Of a stretch of 43,712 nt of DNA, positions 3,044 to 9,234 are shown in pieces. The stretch is from an uncultured Methylococcaceae bacterium (GTDB taxonomy: Bacteria > Pseudomonadota > Gammaproteobacteria > Methylococcales > Methylomonadaceae). Every line of letters begins with the position of its first letter. Within the stretch, counting starts at the first letter, position 1. Below the pieces are notes generated by a model, which was not told the DNA's origin, did no database searches, and was given only the letters and a program-made list of their open reading frames with translations. Where the stretch lies: assembly GCA_903863905.1 (NCBI GenBank), contig CAIPDT010000158.1, positions 1-43,712 of the forward strand, in the 5' to 3' direction. The translations under genes and the position numbers were made by a program.

Positions 3044-3829
3044 TTACCCATCATAGTTAATTGACTTCAAATAGTTTTCTGAACTTTCACCGAGATAATA
3101 TCTTATCGTAGTAAAGAAAGCGGGCCAATGTTGTTGATCATCTTTTTGAAGTAACGCTTTAGCAAGATTTTCGAGTGCCCCTTCTTCACTAATATTTTTA
3201 GAAATTTGCGCTGCAAATTGCTCATTAACGGCGTCTAATACCACCTTTCTATCTCGCATTAATTTTACTGAGTTTAAATTGAGTTTTTTAGGATCTAAAC
3301 AGTTCTTTGCTTTGACTTCATCGACACCTGCCTTACGACAATTCTGCTCGTGCACTGATAAATGACCATCTCTGCGGTTTGCTTTAAATAATACGGGAAA
3401 AGCAGGAATATCAAGAGGATTTAAAATGTCGCCATCTAAAATTGAATCACCTTTTAAGACATCAGAATGTCTTTCGGAATGCTCTGCAATATATCTAGCA
3501 TTATTATCAATAACATATTTTTCAGAACCTCCGTGACAACAACCAAGCATATTGTGCCAATCTAATGCCCAGTTATTTTCAGATTGATTAGCGATTGATT
3601 TAGGATGGAAATGCTCAACACGAAAATCATTTATTGCTTCACCACCACCTTGTTTTGTATTAATTTCACAATAACAGCAAAGATTACCCTGGTCTTGTTG
3701 TAATTTGTTTTGTACCTCGATGTATCCTTCCTGGCACTCGTTTTTAAAATTGTCCCAGGAGGCATGAGGATTAGAAAAACAATACTCTTTAAGTGAATTA
3801 GGGGGCGTTCCTTTTAAGCACTTTTTCAT
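3044..3829 (-). CDS. ptuB: Retron effector HNH nuclease, PtuB-like
   Basis: This 261-residue protein belongs to the TIGR02646/PtuB type of HNH nuclease and is the last gene of the retron operon. The fold is visible as a zinc-binding pair at residues 51-54 (CCYC), the nuclease core VEHFHPKS at 71-78, Asn93 in DWHNMLGCC, and the second cysteine cluster at 97-98. In Ec78-type retrons and Septu systems this protein joins the ATPase PtuA; phage inhibition of the RT-DNA complex frees the pair to cleave nucleic acid (tRNA in Ec78). Its ATG overlaps the PtuA stop codon by four bases (ATGA), so the two are probably made in fixed ratio. All expected catalytic residues seem present. Very likely functional. 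Confidence 0.9.
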   Translation of the reverse strand: MKKCLKGTPPNSLKEYCFSNPHASWDNFKNECQEGYIEVQNKLQQDQGNLCCYCEINTKQGGGEAINDFRVEHFHPKSIANQSENNWALDWHNMLGCCHGGSEKYVIDNNARYIAEHSERHSDVLKGDSILDGDILNPLDIPAFPVLFKANRRDGHLSVHEQNCRKAGVDEVKAKNCLDPKKLNLNSVKLMRDRKVVLDAVNEQFAAQISKNISEEGALENLAKALLQKDDQQHWPAFFTTIRYYLGESSENYLKSINYDG

Positions 3830-5457
3830 AATTGTCGTTGAAACTTCTTCATCCGAATATCTATGTCGACTTTTATCAGTTCAGGTTCCTGACCACAACT
3901 CCATTGATCAAGTTCTCTACGTAAGTCTATTGCTTCAGGGGCATCCCATTCATCATTGTCTACCAATTCACGATAGCGATTGAGTTTTTTAACTCTGGCC
4001 AATTCTGGAGGCCTCGAATCAACACCAAAGATGTCTTTTAGCAAGCGTGATGATTCTGCACCATCGGTTCCAGGTTGAGCAGGAACAACTCTATTAGCAT
4101 CAAGTATTTTGATTTCAAAGGCCGGTACGGTTGAAAGTACCTGAGGACTATGCGTAGTCACAATGAATTGTATATTAGGGAATGTTCTTAATAAGTTTGG
4201 GATAATAGTCTGCTGCCATTTAGGATGTAAATGTAAGTCAATTTCATCTATTAAAACAATGCCATTCCCTTGCAATGGATCACTTAACGATGGATTTAGA
4301 AGCACAAGACGACGAGCTATATCAGCTACCAGTGCTAATAATGATTTTTCACCTTGTGATAACTGTAAAATATTTAAGGTAACGCCCTCTTTATCAATTA
4401 ACATGTCTAACGAAGGACTGCGTTGAATACGTAAATGACTAAACTCCGGCATAAAATCATAGATAGCCTTAGTAACACTCTGAAGGGTTTGACTTGCGTT
4501 TGTTAGAGCCTCATCTGCAACTTGATGTTGAAGCTGCGCTATTTCATCCTGTTTATTCTGTTTAAATGCTTTTAATATGGTTTGTGTTTCAGCATTTTGA
4601 TGACTTTGTTTTTCCATCTCTTTAACAAAATCACTATTCAACTCAGCTTGTAATTTTTCAATACGGATCAGAAGGTCCTGATTCTTTCTATTGTCGGCGT
4701 TACTAATATCTTCAAGATGTTTAAACCAACGAAAAAATAATTTAAAGTCAGCCGACCCTTTAAGTGATCTGTCATAACCAGAAAACTTATCACCGTCTTT
4801 TTGAGACGTCATTTCATCAAATCGAACAGTATCTTTCTCATTAATATCTGTTGCTCTATCAACCGAATAAAATGCGAGAATAGGAAAGTTGAACAGATTA
4901 TTTTTAGAATGGGCTAATCTGTATAATTCAGAAAGTTGTTTAATTTCTTGATACTGACCACTTTTTTTTGTGTAACTACCTTCTTTACTTTTTGATAATT
5001 CAAGATTATAGCTATGTCCAGATACTGAAAACAGACTGAGAATTGACGAGTAATCAAGGTCGCTATCATTATTTATATCCGATAACTCAATGAAGTCGCC
5101 ATTTCCGAATTGACTAATGAAAAATCTGATTAACCAGCTTAAACTTTTTTTGATGGCGTCTAATAAAGTCGTTTTGCCCGCTCCATTAACACCAACCAAT
5201 ACGGTAAAATTTGGTTGATTAGAAAAATCCAGCTCAATCTCTTTAAAGGGACGGAAATTAATTAATTTTAGAGATGATAGCTTTATAGTTGGGTTAGTAA
5301 ACGCAGCTAATACCTTTTCATAATATAAGTTTGCTTTTTCAACATCTTGTGTAACAAACTGTCCCTGAGCGTAATATTCAGCCAATTGAAACAAAGCATT
5401 GATATCCCCCTTATTTGCTTTATGTTCCAATGCTTTAACAGAGCTATTTTTTTTCAT
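3826..5457 (-). CDS. ptuA: Retron effector ATPase, PtuA-like with Sel1-type N-terminus
   Basis: This 543-residue SMC/ABC-type ATPase is the middle gene of the retron operon. Residues about 8-50 form a Sel1/TPR-like helical hairpin (INALFQLAEYYAQGQ), a mark of the Ec78 retron branch of PtuA. The ATPase follows: Walker A GVNGAGKTT at 89-97, a coiled insertion around 260-330, ABC signature LSQGE at 366-370, Walker B VLIDEID at 401-407 and an H-loop TTHS at 434-437. PtuA is expected to oligomerise, bind PtuB and be held inactive by the reverse transcriptase with its multicopy DNA. The start ATG overlaps the end of the RT gene by 14 bases. No lesion is seen. Confidence 0.92.
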   Translation of the reverse strand: MKKNSSVKALEHKANKGDINALFQLAEYYAQGQFVTQDVEKANLYYEKVLAAFTNPTIKLSSLKLINFRPFKEIELDFSNQPNFTVLVGVNGAGKTTLLDAIKKSLSWLIRFFISQFGNGDFIELSDINNDSDLDYSSILSLFSVSGHSYNLELSKSKEGSYTKKSGQYQEIKQLSELYRLAHSKNNLFNFPILAFYSVDRATDINEKDTVRFDEMTSQKDGDKFSGYDRSLKGSADFKLFFRWFKHLEDISNADNRKNQDLLIRIEKLQAELNSDFVKEMEKQSHQNAETQTILKAFKQNKQDEIAQLQHQVADEALTNASQTLQSVTKAIYDFMPEFSHLRIQRSPSLDMLIDKEGVTLNILQLSQGEKSLLALVADIARRLVLLNPSLSDPLQGNGIVLIDEIDLHLHPKWQQTIIPNLLRTFPNIQFIVTTHSPQVLSTVPAFEIKILDANRVVPAQPGTDGAESSRLLKDIFGVDSRPPELARVKKLNRYRELVDNDEWDAPEAIDLRRELDQWSCGQEPELIKVDIDIRMKKFQRQL

Positions 5458-6397
5458 GACCTATCCTTGCAGAGGTTATTATTTGGCTTATTGTCTCAAA
5501 AGAATATTTCTTAATCATACTTTCCTTAAAATGGGGCTCAATATGGCAAGCAAAGGCTAATAACCCCTGCAAATAACTTATATCCTCTTCAGGAAGTTGC
5601 TTAAGTGAAAACTGATGAATTAACGATGAAATATAACGTTTCCTCTGCCGCCCAATTGATAAACAATCGTCATTAGTAATAGTAATGCCAGTAACATGTC
5701 TATTATTAGCCTTAGATGAAAAAACTGTTTTACTTTCATTGATAATGATTCGACCTTTGAAATGCTCAACAAGAAACTGTTTCATCAAGGCAGGAAGGTC
5801 AAATAAACTATTTTTTTTATTACATGAAAAAGTTAAGTCATCTGCATAGCGCGTATAGGTAATTCCTTTGCTTAAGCAGACTTCATATACAGCCGTATCA
5901 AAAAAAAACATAATGCTGTTTGAAATAAATGGCGAACTAGGAGCACCAATACTCATGACCAATTTACCCCCTGTTTTTTTGCTGGGACAAAAAAACAATA
6001 GCTGAGTTAATAAATAATAGTCTTCAGAAGATACACTAATATTTAGATTTTGTAATACTGAAAAGAATAAGTCGGGGGTAATACTATAAAAGAAATTTTG
6101 AAAATCCATCTTTAACAAATAACTCGAGTTTTGATGCTGCATGGCATTTTCTTTCACGCTAAGGTTTTTTCTATAAGCAAATGCCGACTTATGAACAGGG
6201 AGTATTTGTTCTAACAAGCTTATTAAAGCTCGCTGATAATCTTTTAATCTTTTGGCGGGTTGAGCGATGACTCGTTTGCCTGATGTCCGTTTAGGAATCG
6301 AATAGACTTTATACATTTTTGGGGCTGATAACACAAAATCATCAATTTCTTGCTTAGAAACAAATAATTCTTTGCATAAAAAATCATAAAGTTGCAT
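5444..6397 (-). CDS. Retron reverse transcriptase, Ec78-like
   Basis: A 317-residue retron reverse transcriptase. Visible landmarks are the early basic block KRTSGKRVIAQPAKRLKDYQ, the retron region X motif ENAMQHQ (NAxxH type), DFQNFFYSIT (first catalytic Asp), SIGAPSSPFISNSIM, the catalytic YADD within TRYADDLTFS, and region Y as RHVTGITI (VTG). It should reverse-transcribe the msd part of the RNA encoded just upstream (6461-6633) into a branched DNA-RNA hybrid that gates the PtuAB effector. It follows the RNA by about 60 bases and is translationally coupled to ptuA. Length and motifs are normal for the family, and nothing suggests decay. Confidence 0.95.
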   Translation of the reverse strand: MQLYDFLCKELFVSKQEIDDFVLSAPKMYKVYSIPKRTSGKRVIAQPAKRLKDYQRALISLLEQILPVHKSAFAYRKNLSVKENAMQHQNSSYLLKMDFQNFFYSITPDLFFSVLQNLNISVSSEDYYLLTQLLFFCPSKKTGGKLVMSIGAPSSPFISNSIMFFFDTAVYEVCLSKGITYTRYADDLTFSCNKKNSLFDLPALMKQFLVEHFKGRIIINESKTVFSSKANNRHVTGITITNDDCLSIGRQRKRYISSLIHQFSLKQLPEEDISYLQGLLAFACHIEPHFKESMIKKYSFETISQIITSARIGHEKK

Positions 6398-6419
6398 GAG
6401 TTACCTTTAGATCATCATT

Positions 6420-6454
6420 AAAGCATTGGCGAGGTCAAAACTCGCAAATGCTTT
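6420..6454 (-). promoter_or_regulatory. Stem-loop between the retron RNA and the RT gene
   Basis: Two 14-base arms (6420-6433 and 6441-6454) pair with one mismatch around a seven-base loop. In the sense direction the arms read AAAGCATTTGCGAG and CTCGCCAATGCTTT. The stem sits just after the a2 repeat and 23 bases before the RT start codon. It lacks a following U-run, so it is more likely a processing or stability element separating msr-msd from the mRNA than a full terminator. Confidence 0.65.
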
Positions 6455-6460
6455 AGTTGA

Positions 6461-6633
6461 ATCTCTTTACCTTAATAAAGCGGAAGCGATTTTTCGCGCT
6501 TATTAACCGAAGACATGAGAGCAAGAAGCGCGGAAAATCGCTTCCGCGCCCCTAAAACGACTCAATAAATTAGAGTCTGGCTAAACGCCCGACTAAACTA
6601 ATACTTAATTAGTTTGTAAACTCTAAAGAGATG
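6461..6633 (-). ncRNA. Retron msr-msd RNA
   Basis: Read on the minus strand, the element starts with repeat a1 (ATCTCTTTA, 6632-6624) and ends with its perfect complement a2 (TAAAGAGAT, 6469-6461), as retrons require. After a1 come G residues at 6623 and 6621, candidates for the branching guanosine. The msr has a perfect 8-bp hairpin (arms 6615-6608 and 6602-6595, AAACTAAT with ATTAGTTT), a small GGC/GCC stem and a GACTC/GAGTC stem near 6578-6560. The msd is one long hairpin: 22-base arms at 6547-6526 and 6501-6480 pair with a single mismatch, closing a 24-base loop that contains CTTGCTCTCATGTC. The overall size (~173 nt) and order match known retrons. Boundaries are inferred from a1/a2 and the promoter. 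Confidence 0.88.
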
Positions 6634-6639
6634 AGTCAC

Positions 6640-6668
6640 ATTCTATAGGACTCCTTAATTATCAGCAA
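6640..6668 (-). promoter_or_regulatory. Candidate promoter of the retron operon
   Basis: A -35 box TTGCTG (6668-6663), a 17-base spacer and a -10 box TAGAAT (6645-6640) fit a sigma-70 promoter. The start would fall at about 6633-6634, one or two bases before the a1 repeat. This agrees with an RNA that begins at a1 and runs on through RT, ptuA and ptuB. Confidence 0.6.
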
Positions 6669-7062
6669 CATGATAAATGTATTTAATTTTCTCTGACGAG
6701 TCATCCTTGCCATTCGTGCGTTTTAACGCGAAAATGCTGGGCAATGAAAAGATATTACCCAGATGCTGCAGGGGTAATTCCTTGCAGTTTCCCTGATAAT
6801 AACTTGGTATTAAAGAGCAGACCTTAGCGGTAATGGACAGCTTAATTGCCGCAACAGCACAACCAGTTTTACGCCACGGAAGCCCTGGTGGATTGGGTAA
6901 TTGTCGCCGAACACAATCAATTGCATCTTTTTTCTCCGGTGTTCGGCGACAATTATCCTGATCGGCTTCAATATCAATAAGCTTATCCAATTCATTCTCG
7001 ATTTCCTGGAATAAGACTCCTGCTTCAAGCGCCTTATCCATCAATGCAAATAATGCTGGCAA
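6655..7062 (-). CDS. Doubtful open frame made of rearranged pieces
   Basis: The frame runs 135 codons from a TTG at 7060-7062, with a TAG only five codons upstream. The first ~45 residues (LPALFALMDKALEAGVLFQE, IENELDKLIDIEADQDN) look like real helical protein. The centre is the inverted repeat at 6898-6955, and after it the text is cysteine- and proline-rich with no family I recognise. Within it, out of frame, lies a copy of the UPF0175 antitoxin start. I read this as fused debris rather than a functional gene. Confidence 0.3.
   Translation of the reverse strand: MPALFALMDKALEAGVLFQEIENELDKLIDIEADQDNCRRTPEKKDAIDCVRRQLPNPPGLPWRKTGCAVAAIKLSITAKVCSLIPSYYQGNCKELPLQHLGNIFSLPSIFALKRTNGKDDSSEKIKYIYHVADN
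6898..6955. repeat. Perfect 17-bp inverted repeat around a copied antitoxin start
   Basis: Arms at 6898-6914 and 6939-6955 (TAATTGTCGCCGAACAC and its exact complement) enclose 24 bases. On the minus strand these hold CTCCGG's complement, a poly-A ribosome site and ATGCAATTGATT, that is the ribosome site and first codons of the UPF0175 gene at 2810-2850 with one extra base in the A-run. The stem would be very stable in RNA or single-stranded DNA. It could mark template switching or an insertion into a palindrome. Confidence 0.75.
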
Positions 7063-7332: not shown

Positions 7333-9234
7333 TTAATGCATCGTATATTCCGCTTCAGATGTATCCTCATCCTCCTCAACATCTTCCAATTCTTCCCGAA
7401 CTTCGCCAATAAAGAGTTTTTTTCCAGTCGCATGTTCGATGAGCACCAAAAGTTGCTTTTGTCGGTCAACCATAAAAGCGTCAAAATCGTTACTATATAA
7501 AAGTGACGGGCTAATCAGATGGGATTTAAGGTAAGAATCAAGATTATCGCGTGGAATTGGCGGCGTTACAGCATCACCTTTCTGCAATTTAGCAAGATAA
7601 TCTGATGGGGCAACACCGCCGATAATCCGATTTGTCCGGTACGAAAGTGGCGTCTTGTTGATAATGGAATCAAAAACATCAGGTTTTATACCCTGCTTTT
7701 TACACCAATCTTGCGGAAATATGTGGTGAATATCTACATTTTCCCCAAAGAAATTTGTAAGGCCGAATTCCCGACCAGATCGAAAGTCACGTGCACCCTC
7801 TTTCATCAAAAGAGCATTAATACCCTTGTAAGCTGCCGAGAGACGCATGCGCATGGTTTTCAGCCTATCAGCCCGAAACATAGTTTCACTTACCGTTGAT
7901 GGTTCTGGTCCACCTATTAGCCAAGCGGGAACTTCCATGAAGTCACGTGCAATACGTGTATCAACTGCTGAACCATAAAGTTCACCAAATACGCCATTCC
8001 AATACCATCGCACCAGCTTTGCACGATTGGCTTCATGCCCCGAAGCGTCCCCAATATCGGCTAGGATCGCTGCCAATGGAATGATTTGAGACTGATACGG
8101 AAGATCAAAAATACGATAGATATGAAGTGAAAACAGAAACTCAGCCGCTTTGACAAAGCCATGTTCAACTTGTTTTTCATATTTCTTATATGCATTAAGA
8201 GGCAGATTTAATAATGCCTGACGATTGCCAGTGACCGCAGGTAATTCCTTGCCCTGCTTTCCCGCTGTCTCTGCTGCACGTCGCCGATCGCGTGTATAGA
8301 AAAGCGAAATTGCCTGAAGAAAATCGGTATTTGATACGTTATTTAGGATTCCGTTATCGGCCCCGGCAAGGCTGTGAGTTTCTGCAAAACGGTGATGTCT
8401 CCCTTTGTAAGATTCGTCTCCATACCAATCTTTTCTCAATTCATGACCTGAAGTAGCATACATTGCTGTAACAAGCTCAAAAGCATCGAGTGGTTTTCCT
8501 CCAGTGTTAACTTTTTCAAAGACAACACATACAGCTTCCTTCGAGGTCGATTGATCAAGTGCAATTACCGGCACATGATAATCTTTAAAGTTTTCTAGTA
8601 TATGTCTCTTGAAATCCCGAAACTCTGTACGTACGCTCTTATTTTGGTCTCCACTCCAATACTCGTCGAACCCATCTTGCCAGTTATCCCAATCAAAGAC
8701 CTGTGAAACCGGATACATGAGAGTGGCATATTCCAATTCTACTGATGAAATATTCAATACCTCTTCCCTGCCAAAATCGGATCGAACTATCCGGTCCTCA
8801 GGAATGCTGACAATTGCCTCTTCGCGATCTACTGATAGATCAAGTGCTTTTCGAATGTCGATATAGAACCAGCGTTTTACTTTTTTCTTCTTTGGGGTAA
8901 CTGTTTCAACAACCTGTCCCCGCAAGCTAACCTGATAAAGCGAAGTCATTCTTTGTTGACCATCAAGTAGTAATGAACGTGGAATTGTCTGTTTCGCAGT
9001 AACAGGAGCACCTTCGACAGGTCTAGGCTTAAAATCTACTGAACCACCCCTATCAAGTGTCATGAGTGCGCCTACAGGGAACGCCCTAGAAATTGAAGCG
9101 ATCAAACTCTTTATTCTATCTTCATCCCAAACCCAACTGCGCTGGAAGTCTGGCAACTGCAAAATACCACTATGGCATTCGTCGAGAAGTTCTTTTAAAC
9201 GAATAGGGTTTGTCTTAAAAGTTGATCCAGCCAT
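7333..9234 (-). CDS. GmrSD-family DUF262/HNH restriction nuclease
   Basis: A 633-residue single-chain protein of the GmrSD type, expected to be a type IV-like nuclease that attacks modified phage DNA. The N-terminal DUF262 (ParB-like) domain shows QLPDFQRSWVWDEDRIKSLI at about 26-45 and the signature DGQQRMTSLY at 91-100, proposed to bind and hydrolyse nucleotide. FEKVNTGGKPLDAFELV at about 239-255 belongs to the same domain. The C-terminal half ends in an HNH-type (DUF1524-like) nuclease with DIHHIFPQDWC at 501-511 and the follow-up Asn in INKTPLSYRTNRI. The tail (about 612-630) is very acidic. It stands alone, reading on the minus strand with remnants on both sides; length and motifs are complete. 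The 110-base AT-rich gap upstream presumably holds its promoter. Confidence 0.9.
   Translation of the reverse strand: MAGSTFKTNPIRLKELLDECHSGILQLPDFQRSWVWDEDRIKSLIASISRAFPVGALMTLDRGGSVDFKPRPVEGAPVTAKQTIPRSLLLDGQQRMTSLYQVSLRGQVVETVTPKKKKVKRWFYIDIRKALDLSVDREEAIVSIPEDRIVRSDFGREEVLNISSVELEYATLMYPVSQVFDWDNWQDGFDEYWSGDQNKSVRTEFRDFKRHILENFKDYHVPVIALDQSTSKEAVCVVFEKVNTGGKPLDAFELVTAMYATSGHELRKDWYGDESYKGRHHRFAETHSLAGADNGILNNVSNTDFLQAISLFYTRDRRRAAETAGKQGKELPAVTGNRQALLNLPLNAYKKYEKQVEHGFVKAAEFLFSLHIYRIFDLPYQSQIIPLAAILADIGDASGHEANRAKLVRWYWNGVFGELYGSAVDTRIARDFMEVPAWLIGGPEPSTVSETMFRADRLKTMRMRLSAAYKGINALLMKEGARDFRSGREFGLTNFFGENVDIHHIFPQDWCKKQGIKPDVFDSIINKTPLSYRTNRIIGGVAPSDYLAKLQKGDAVTPPIPRDNLDSYLKSHLISPSLLYSNDFDAFMVDRQKQLLVLIEHATGKKLFIGEVREELEDVEEDEDTSEAEYTMH

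Follow-up and report, generated by a model that had tools for sequence, protein, structure and literature searches.

Do all parts of a retron defence operon descend from retrons? The question is raised by contig CAIPDT010000158.1 of an uncultured Methylococcaceae bacterium (hereafter the window; 43,712 nucleotides (nt), the whole of one contig of a 2.79 Mb draft genome in 179 contigs), which carries at positions 6668-3044, on the minus strand, a promoter-like block, an msr-msd RNA and the genes of a reverse transcriptase (RT), of PtuA and of PtuB. The original prediction, made from the sequence, had described an intact multi-gene retron operon with overlapping genes and had assigned its combination of RT and PtuAB to a known class. 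Both statements were borne out. The three open reading frames are uninterrupted (6397-5444, 317 amino acids; 5457-3826, 543 amino acids; 3829-3044, 261 amino acids), the RT gene overlaps ptuA by 14 bases and ptuA overlaps ptuB by 4 bases, and, judged by its genes and its RNA, the operon is a complete type I-A retron, a class already known. What had escaped the prediction is that the operon is a mosaic whose PtuA tail and PtuB are common to stand-alone Septu systems, as is evident from identities, blastn alignments, trees and triplet comparisons. The parts concerned are the following:

3826-5457, minus strand: PtuA ATPase, 543 amino acids, mosaic (family models, PDB, structure model)
4240-5457, minus strand: retron-type head of PtuA, a helical N-terminal end and the ATPase core up to Walker B (identities; head tree 99/97)
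4132-4264, minus strand: mosaic junction (Walker B codons 400-405 at 4260-4243; ends of the DNA alignments; triplet breaks)
3826-4239, minus strand: Septu-type tail of PtuA (identities over residues 425-543)
3044-3829, minus strand: PtuB HNH nuclease, 261 amino acids, Septu-type (identities; PtuB tree)

The head of PtuA (residues 58-395) shares 50-52% identity with three sister retrons (L002 and L003 of the same genus as the window, L006 of another genus of the family) and 20-25% with four stand-alone Septu systems (L032, L064, L065, L067), whose PtuA proteins, 466-495 amino acids long, start at the ATPase core. The tail (residues 425-543), in contrast, is 61-68% identical to that of the four Septu and 28-29% identical to that of the sister retrons, the corresponding values for PtuB being 60-65% and 18-21%. 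The RT is 63-66% identical to the RTs of the sister retrons, among which L003 also keeps the RNA and the upstream block. In a blastn comparison of the operon, similarity to L003 extends from 6674 to 4212 and similarity to L032 from 4264 to 3054, and the switch of kinship therefore falls on the Walker B codons. Four triplets place the break at PtuA residues 406/407, 428/429, 406/407 and 441/442. In the triplet permutation over PtuA (from residue 58) and PtuB, 103:21 sites favour the retron parent to the left and 13:162 the Septu parent to the right, with 0/20000 shuffles as extreme. Across 12 triplets the breaks lie at residues 378-475, each again with 0/20000 shuffles as extreme; these permutations take no account of rate differences between sites, and the choice of the triplets, as of the small tested clades, was made with the pattern already in view, RT presence serving as the label that tells retron from Septu. 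Over all pairs of systems, identity in the tail is correlated with identity in PtuB at r 0.93, compared with 0.745 for the head. No RT was found in any of the Septu loci of the trees (26/26) and no msr in any of the 20 that were searched, some loci extending just a few hundred bases upstream of ptuA. As read from these alignments, two ancestries meet in the operon: the RNA, the RT and PtuA as far as Walker B have a common origin with retrons of the same genus, the last ~100-135 residues of PtuA and PtuB with Septu that stand alone in the same bacterial family.

The trees comprise 44 systems, namely 18 retrons and 26 Septu. In the PtuA-head tree a single branch (99/97) separates retrons from Septu, corresponding to 1 change, in 200/200 bootstraps. 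The PtuA-tail tree requires 5 changes, 2 of them forced by starred branches, and rejects a single group of retrons (approximately unbiased (AU) test, p 8e-7); the PtuB tree likewise requires 5 changes, at least 4 of them forced, and rejects the single retron group with AU p 1e-5. Forcing the head of the window together with its Septu kin is rejected as well (p 1.5e-50). In the PtuB tree the window falls into a clade with the four Septu named above (100/99), and the matching group of the tail tree, which also contains L068 and L069, is drawn open (84/88). A second Septu group (L108-L123) encloses the back ends of the sister retrons, a third Septu set, L070-L074, is joined by the back ends of Ec83 and of L004, a Ketobacter retron (PtuB 96/86, tail 90/96), and the back ends of L027, L029 and L055-L063 make up a retron-only group. 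The picture is unchanged when seven long-branched or near-duplicate rows, Ec83 among them, are omitted. Relatives of the window PtuB occupy 18 places in the order, including the window, 12 of which are in the trees; L066 (partial PtuA), L075 (partial PtuB, no PtuA), L077 (no match) and two G297 fragments were left out. For the PtuB of the sister retrons there are 32 places, made up of the three retrons themselves, 16 taken with their flanks and 13 weaker ones left out; 14 of the 16 are in the trees, L114 and L120 being partial. The retrons L005 and L007, cut by contig ends, are absent from the PtuA trees. At the level of sequence, these comparisons demonstrate an exchange between retron and Septu at the Walker B region.

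A simpler history would be that of an ordinary Ec78-type retron which cleaves tRNA-Tyr and whose apparent mosaic merely reflects uneven evolutionary rates along PtuA. Gene order, RT and the PtuA equivalog model NF041760 indeed match Ec78, and among PDB chains the RT scores up to 292.7 bits against Ec78, slightly above the 273.8 bits against Ec83. Uneven rates, however, cannot give a tail and a PtuB with 60-68% identity to Septu whose heads show 20-25%; moreover, head and tail of the window have different nearest kin and the tree tests reject both alternatives. On the strength of these tests and of the triplet permutation we rejected uneven rates as a substitute for exchange and regard the ordinary history as very improbable, the argument against it leaving tRNA-Tyr as a target unaffected.

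Alternatively, a Septu and a sister-type retron might reside together in the genome and have been joined by the assembler at the Walker B codons, which are conserved. The junction, known from the assembly, lies where the gene is most conserved, and the draft consists of many contigs. Yet neither a reciprocal Septu head nor a sister-type tail was found elsewhere in the assembly, where only short distant matches occur on contigs 19 and 85, and the reading frames are continuous. Within 4101-4420 there is no identical run of at least 14 bases with L003, and the runs shared with L032, 15 and 14 bases long, both lie in the tail, an argument which is limited inasmuch as the true parents may be closer than L003 and L032. 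In addition, comparable conflicts between front and back are found in the set of L002, L003 and L006, in L004, in Ec83 and in the Septu L071, L073 and L074. Such a chimeric contig appears very improbable to us. The three last-named Septu deserve a remark of their own: their heads resemble that of L032 (74-77%), while their PtuB proteins are closer to that of the Ketobacter retron (44-49%) than to that of L032 (33-34%). They represent a back-end swap between Septu and Septu near PtuA residue 474.

With respect to age, synonymous divergence (dS) between the fronts of the window and L003 is saturated (3.8 in the head of PtuA, with no computable value for the RT), whereas between the back ends of the window and L032 it amounts to 1.3 and 1.6, with a ratio of non-synonymous to synonymous divergence (dN/dS) of ~0.17. 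Hence the link through the back is the more recent one, and constraint appears to act on the two halves of the operon alike. Since L068 and L069, the next outgroups of the window's group in the PtuB tree, are Septu as well, transfer from Septu to retron is favoured and, from the branching order, likely. This direction is not firm, as the branch that unites the four close Septu without the window has a support of only 91/42. If, conversely, a retron had donated tail and PtuB to the Methylococcaceae Septu lineage, the four Septu would be expected beside the window, as they are, with the window not nested among them; but that history needs an extra change, the outgroups also being Septu, and the sister retrons bear other back ends. 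We consider it unlikely. As to where the back end came from, a scan of viral contigs with PtuB, sensitive to close relatives only, returned no relative, and the plasmid search yielded merely three Acinetobacter records at 35%; neither source was retained. Across 369 genomes of the class, that of the window included, the sole match at E 1e-10 is the window's own. A type I-A retron with msr RNA and PtuAB is present in the filamentous Vibrio phage PQ189325 (L028, 3676-7082).

The front of the operon, which would sense the infection, is made up of these elements:

6640-6668, minus strand: promoter-like block, TTGCTG (6668-6663), a 17-base spacer and TAGAAT (6645-6640), found by eye
6624-6632, minus strand: a1 arm of the retron RNA, pairing with a2 at 6461-6469 (99.1% of cells paired over 13 RNAs)
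6557-6631, minus strand: msr, Rfam RF00170 (cmscan 52.1 bits against a gathering cut-off of 52, E 1.5e-6)
6480-6547, minus strand: msd hairpin, putative template of the multicopy single-stranded DNA (msDNA), with 25-nt arms at 6523-6547 and 6480-6504 (inverted repeat, 92% complementary)
6461-6469, minus strand: a2 arm of the retron RNA, partner of a1
5444-6397, minus strand: retron RT of type I-A, 317 amino acids (family models, motifs, RT tree)

The RNA span of 6461-6633 given in the original prediction agrees with the a1/a2 ends found at 6632 and 6461, and the covariance-model search proposed as a check returned the Rfam msr match at 6631-6557. With a margin of 0.1 bit over the gathering cut-off this match is marginal on its own; nevertheless the msr-msd assignment is firm, because the RNAs of relatives keep the stems. 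The msr search covered 23 loci, 13 of them with a match, and 12 RNAs were aligned with that of the window; L011, whose RNA lies more than 1 kb from the RT, was left out, and L058, L060 and L062 are among the loci lacking a passing match. In the resulting alignment of 13 RNAs, 99.6% of cells are paired in a1/a2, one msr stem and the base of the msd hairpin, and sliding the stem partners by 1-3 columns lowers pairing to 33-48%. Six pairs have changed on both sides, compared with a mean of 3.0 in shuffles, 1/500 of which reached six, and the covariation score is 0.230 as against 0.103 in shuffles; the count of further pair types did not rise above shuffles (159/500). Two of the pairs changed on both sides belong to the a1/a2 stem, whose outermost pair has letters in just 3/13 RNAs, and three to the proximal seven pairs of the msd hairpin, which are present in 13/13. 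In each of the 13 RNAs the region between folds as one main hairpin, and the RNA of the window folds 5 standard deviations better than shuffled sequences. The G at 6623 (G28 of the alignment) is invariant, and we take it to be a candidate priming G. From this anatomy an msDNA of ~70-90 nt would be expected. The predicted promoter fared less well: the block is present and conserved, the DNA alignments to the sister retrons L003, L007 and L033 all beginning at 6674 just before it, but a consensus promoter scan, which found 18 sites where 15.7 are expected by chance, did not list its spacing. We thus describe it as a weak consensus backed by conservation only.

The RT scores 450 bits with the PADLOC model RT_I-A, followed by RT_II-A (385), and 325.5 bits with the NCBIfam model retron_St85_RT (cut-off 235), as compared to 48.1 with that of group II intron RTs (cut-off 300). 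What we take to be the RT motifs YADD, NAxxH and VTG had been part of the prediction. YADD and NAxxH are invariant across 10 RTs and so are T and G of VTG, while V is replaced by I in 3/10. In a tree of 26 RTs, all of them from retrons, the RT of the window lies inside the group with PtuAB downstream (19 rows, support 86/89, counting L007 whose downstream region is cut). Seven RT relatives (L011, L012, L013, L015, L016, L030, L031) have no PtuA in the available stretch and were used in the RT tree only. Family models and this tree of retron RTs accordingly agree with the predicted placement in the retron clade. At E 1e-60 RT matches occur in 9/301 genomes of the order and 2/369 of the class, the window's own being counted in both; RTs of this kind are rare in the order and class searched.

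The predicted succession of a PtuA ATPase and an HNH PtuB is confirmed by the family models and by Walker A and Walker B in PtuA and HNH-type residues in PtuB, all readable in the translations. PtuA passes NF041760, the PtuA equivalog of the Ec78 system (532.9 bits, cut-off 500); PtuB fails NF041761, the Ec78 PtuB model (117.9 bits, cut-off 150), and passes TIGR02646 (87.9 bits, cut-off 52.15). Among PDB sequences PtuA is closest to Ec83 (373 bits), followed by the type I-A entry 9n69 (252) and by Ec78/Eco7 chains (at most 231); for PtuB, Ec83 is again best (63 bits, 9n69 23), and no chain named Ec78 or Eco7 was matched at E 0.001. The term "Ec78-type" hence applies to RT and gene order, and for the effectors we rejected it. 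The attribute "Sel1-headed" was not upheld either, as Pfam Sel1 gave no match on PtuA at E 0.001 and residues 9-65 gave just a weak match to NCBIfam MotX (E 1e-4, far under cut-off). The structure model, which has a mean predicted local distance difference test score (pLDDT) of 79, places head helices at residues 3-15, 19-31 and 39-52, and a Sel1-like helical fold of the head is possible on this model. Further along, residues 463-484 are modelled with low confidence as a linker and three helices come after it, in agreement with a PtuA tail that is a unit of its own; the link between this unit and PtuB is a prediction. In deposited structures (PDB 9e91, 9e90, 9n69, 9n6c) more PtuA residues are ordered in some entries or chains with PtuB/HNH: 481-483 in Ec83 as against 390-392 in the PtuA dimer alone, and in retron IA 512-525 in two chains as against 425-448. 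Chain lengths of this kind hint at an ordering of the tail when PtuB binds, but inside Eco7 complexes, too, the lengths differ (336-447 in entry 9vhe).

Taken as a whole, we think the operon probably is a working I-A retron sensor with a nuclease end shared with Septu which acts by abortive infection. The RT would copy the msd into msDNA, and RT and msDNA would bind PtuA via its retron-type head and thereby keep PtuAB inactive, as in Eco7 and Eco4. Damage to or removal of the msDNA by a phage would release PtuAB from the complex, and the freed PtuB would cut nucleic acid so that growth stops before phage maturation. Azam 2024 (PMC11555353) showed PtuAB to be toxic in both retrons: in Eco7 its restraint requires RT together with msr-msd, and tRNA-Tyr falls; in Eco4 the toxicity comes without loss of tRNA. 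According to PMC12887533, the Septu effector of Eco4 and another I-A retron is inactive until infection dissociates the complex, whereupon single-stranded DNA or tRNA is degraded. As target of the window's PtuB we lean slightly towards DNA (Eco4-like) rather than tRNA-Tyr (Eco7-like), because among solved chains its effectors are nearest to Ec83 and the nearest solved relative of the PtuA of its Septu kin L032 is E. coli PtuA (8ee4). Several points weigh against our interpretation: besides the narrow Rfam margin, the low support for the direction of exchange and the conserved position of the junction, the target assignment is one by similarity and weak, tRNA-Tyr is cut by a Septu from a different E. 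coli strain (PMC13096335), and an HNH nuclease of a type I-A retron halts protein synthesis according to a meeting report (PMC12908700).

It is also conceivable that the operon, though undamaged, is silent and travels as a recent passenger in a defence island undergoing decay. This idea draws on adjacent short dispersed repeats and an apparent gene fragment noticed by eye. The motifs, however, are intact in sequence, amino-acid changes with respect to kin lie far below silent ones in both halves, and the RNA stems are kept through paired changes across relatives. We regard a silent passenger as improbable. Upstream of the retron, 7333-9234 encodes a 633-residue GmrSD_N (DUF262) protein (Pfam E 2e-28), possibly a second defence gene, and downstream, at 2102-2837, lies a toxin-antitoxin-like pair of UPF0175 and DUF3368 (Pfam; PADLOC PDC-S70). 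This pair and the GmrSD_N gene may form a small defence island around the retron. By eye, 6912-6939 is a 28-base near-copy of 2823-2849, where the UPF0175 gene starts; it has one A more and is flanked by the inverted repeat arms GTCGCCGAACAC (6950-6939) and GTGTTCGGCGAC (6914-6903). Short dispersed repeats with several copies in genomes of the same genus occupy 6708-6751 and 6764-6820. The segment 2800-2928 is 99% identical to a stretch of another genome of the genus (G667, contig 67), far above any relative of the retron found.

That retrons of type I-A and Septu share ptuAB is already known (PMC8565338). What seems new is the break inside PtuA, with heads that stay with retrons and a tail that moves with PtuB as a unit. 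A literature search found no report of an exchange inside PtuA between retrons and Septu; its coverage did not extend to the main structure papers of 2025 or to the retron survey of 2020. The interest of the locus hence resides in the swap and its lesson on the parts of PtuA rather than in one more retron, and the break positions (PtuA residues 378-475) provide a testable map of a part which reads the sensor and a part which carries the nuclease. The mosaic hints that retrons may re-arm by swapping their toxin end. In a wider generalisation, to which we assign about even chances, related I-A retrons would be a fixed sensor chassis of RNA, RT and PtuA head repeatedly re-armed with a cassette of Septu tail and PtuB, whereby the last ~65 residues of PtuA couple to PtuB and the choice of target, DNA or tRNA, travels with the cassette. 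If true, a target choice borne by the cassette would explain why the reported targets of Eco4 and Eco7, members of one subtype, differ; the mosaic itself offers a possible reason for this difference.

Compared with known systems, the operon resembles Retron-Eco4 (Ec83; PDB 9e8z, 9e90, 9e91) in being of type I-A, in a PtuB of likewise ~260 amino acids and in providing the best match to PtuA in both sequence (373 bits) and fold (Foldseek template modelling (TM) score 0.79) as well as to PtuB (63 bits). It differs from Eco4 in that identity amounts to only ~38% in head and tail of PtuA, in that its RT matches several other I-A chains better, and in that the PtuB of Ec83 belongs to a different Septu-mixed clade while that of the window is closer to Methylococcaceae Septu. 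With Retron-Eco7 (Ec78) it shares the gene order, the PtuA equivalog model and an RT match of up to 292.7 bits, but its PtuB fails the Ec78 cut-off and matches no Ec78/Eco7 chain at E 0.001; the back ends matching the annotated Ec78-type plasmid retron L029, those of L027 and L055-L063, form with it the retron-only group. To the stand-alone Septu L032, L064, L065 and L067 the locus is linked by the PtuA tail (61-68%) and PtuB (60-65%), whereas their PtuA is shorter, starting from the ATPase core, and the window, which has RT and RNA, falls outside Septu type I. The sister retrons L002, L003 and L006, from Methylococcaceae and Methylomicrobium metagenome-assembled genomes, are akin to it in RT (63-66%) and PtuA head (50-52%) and depart from it in the PtuA tail (28-29%) and in PtuB, which in them is 208-213 amino acids long, 18-21% identical and nested in another Septu group.

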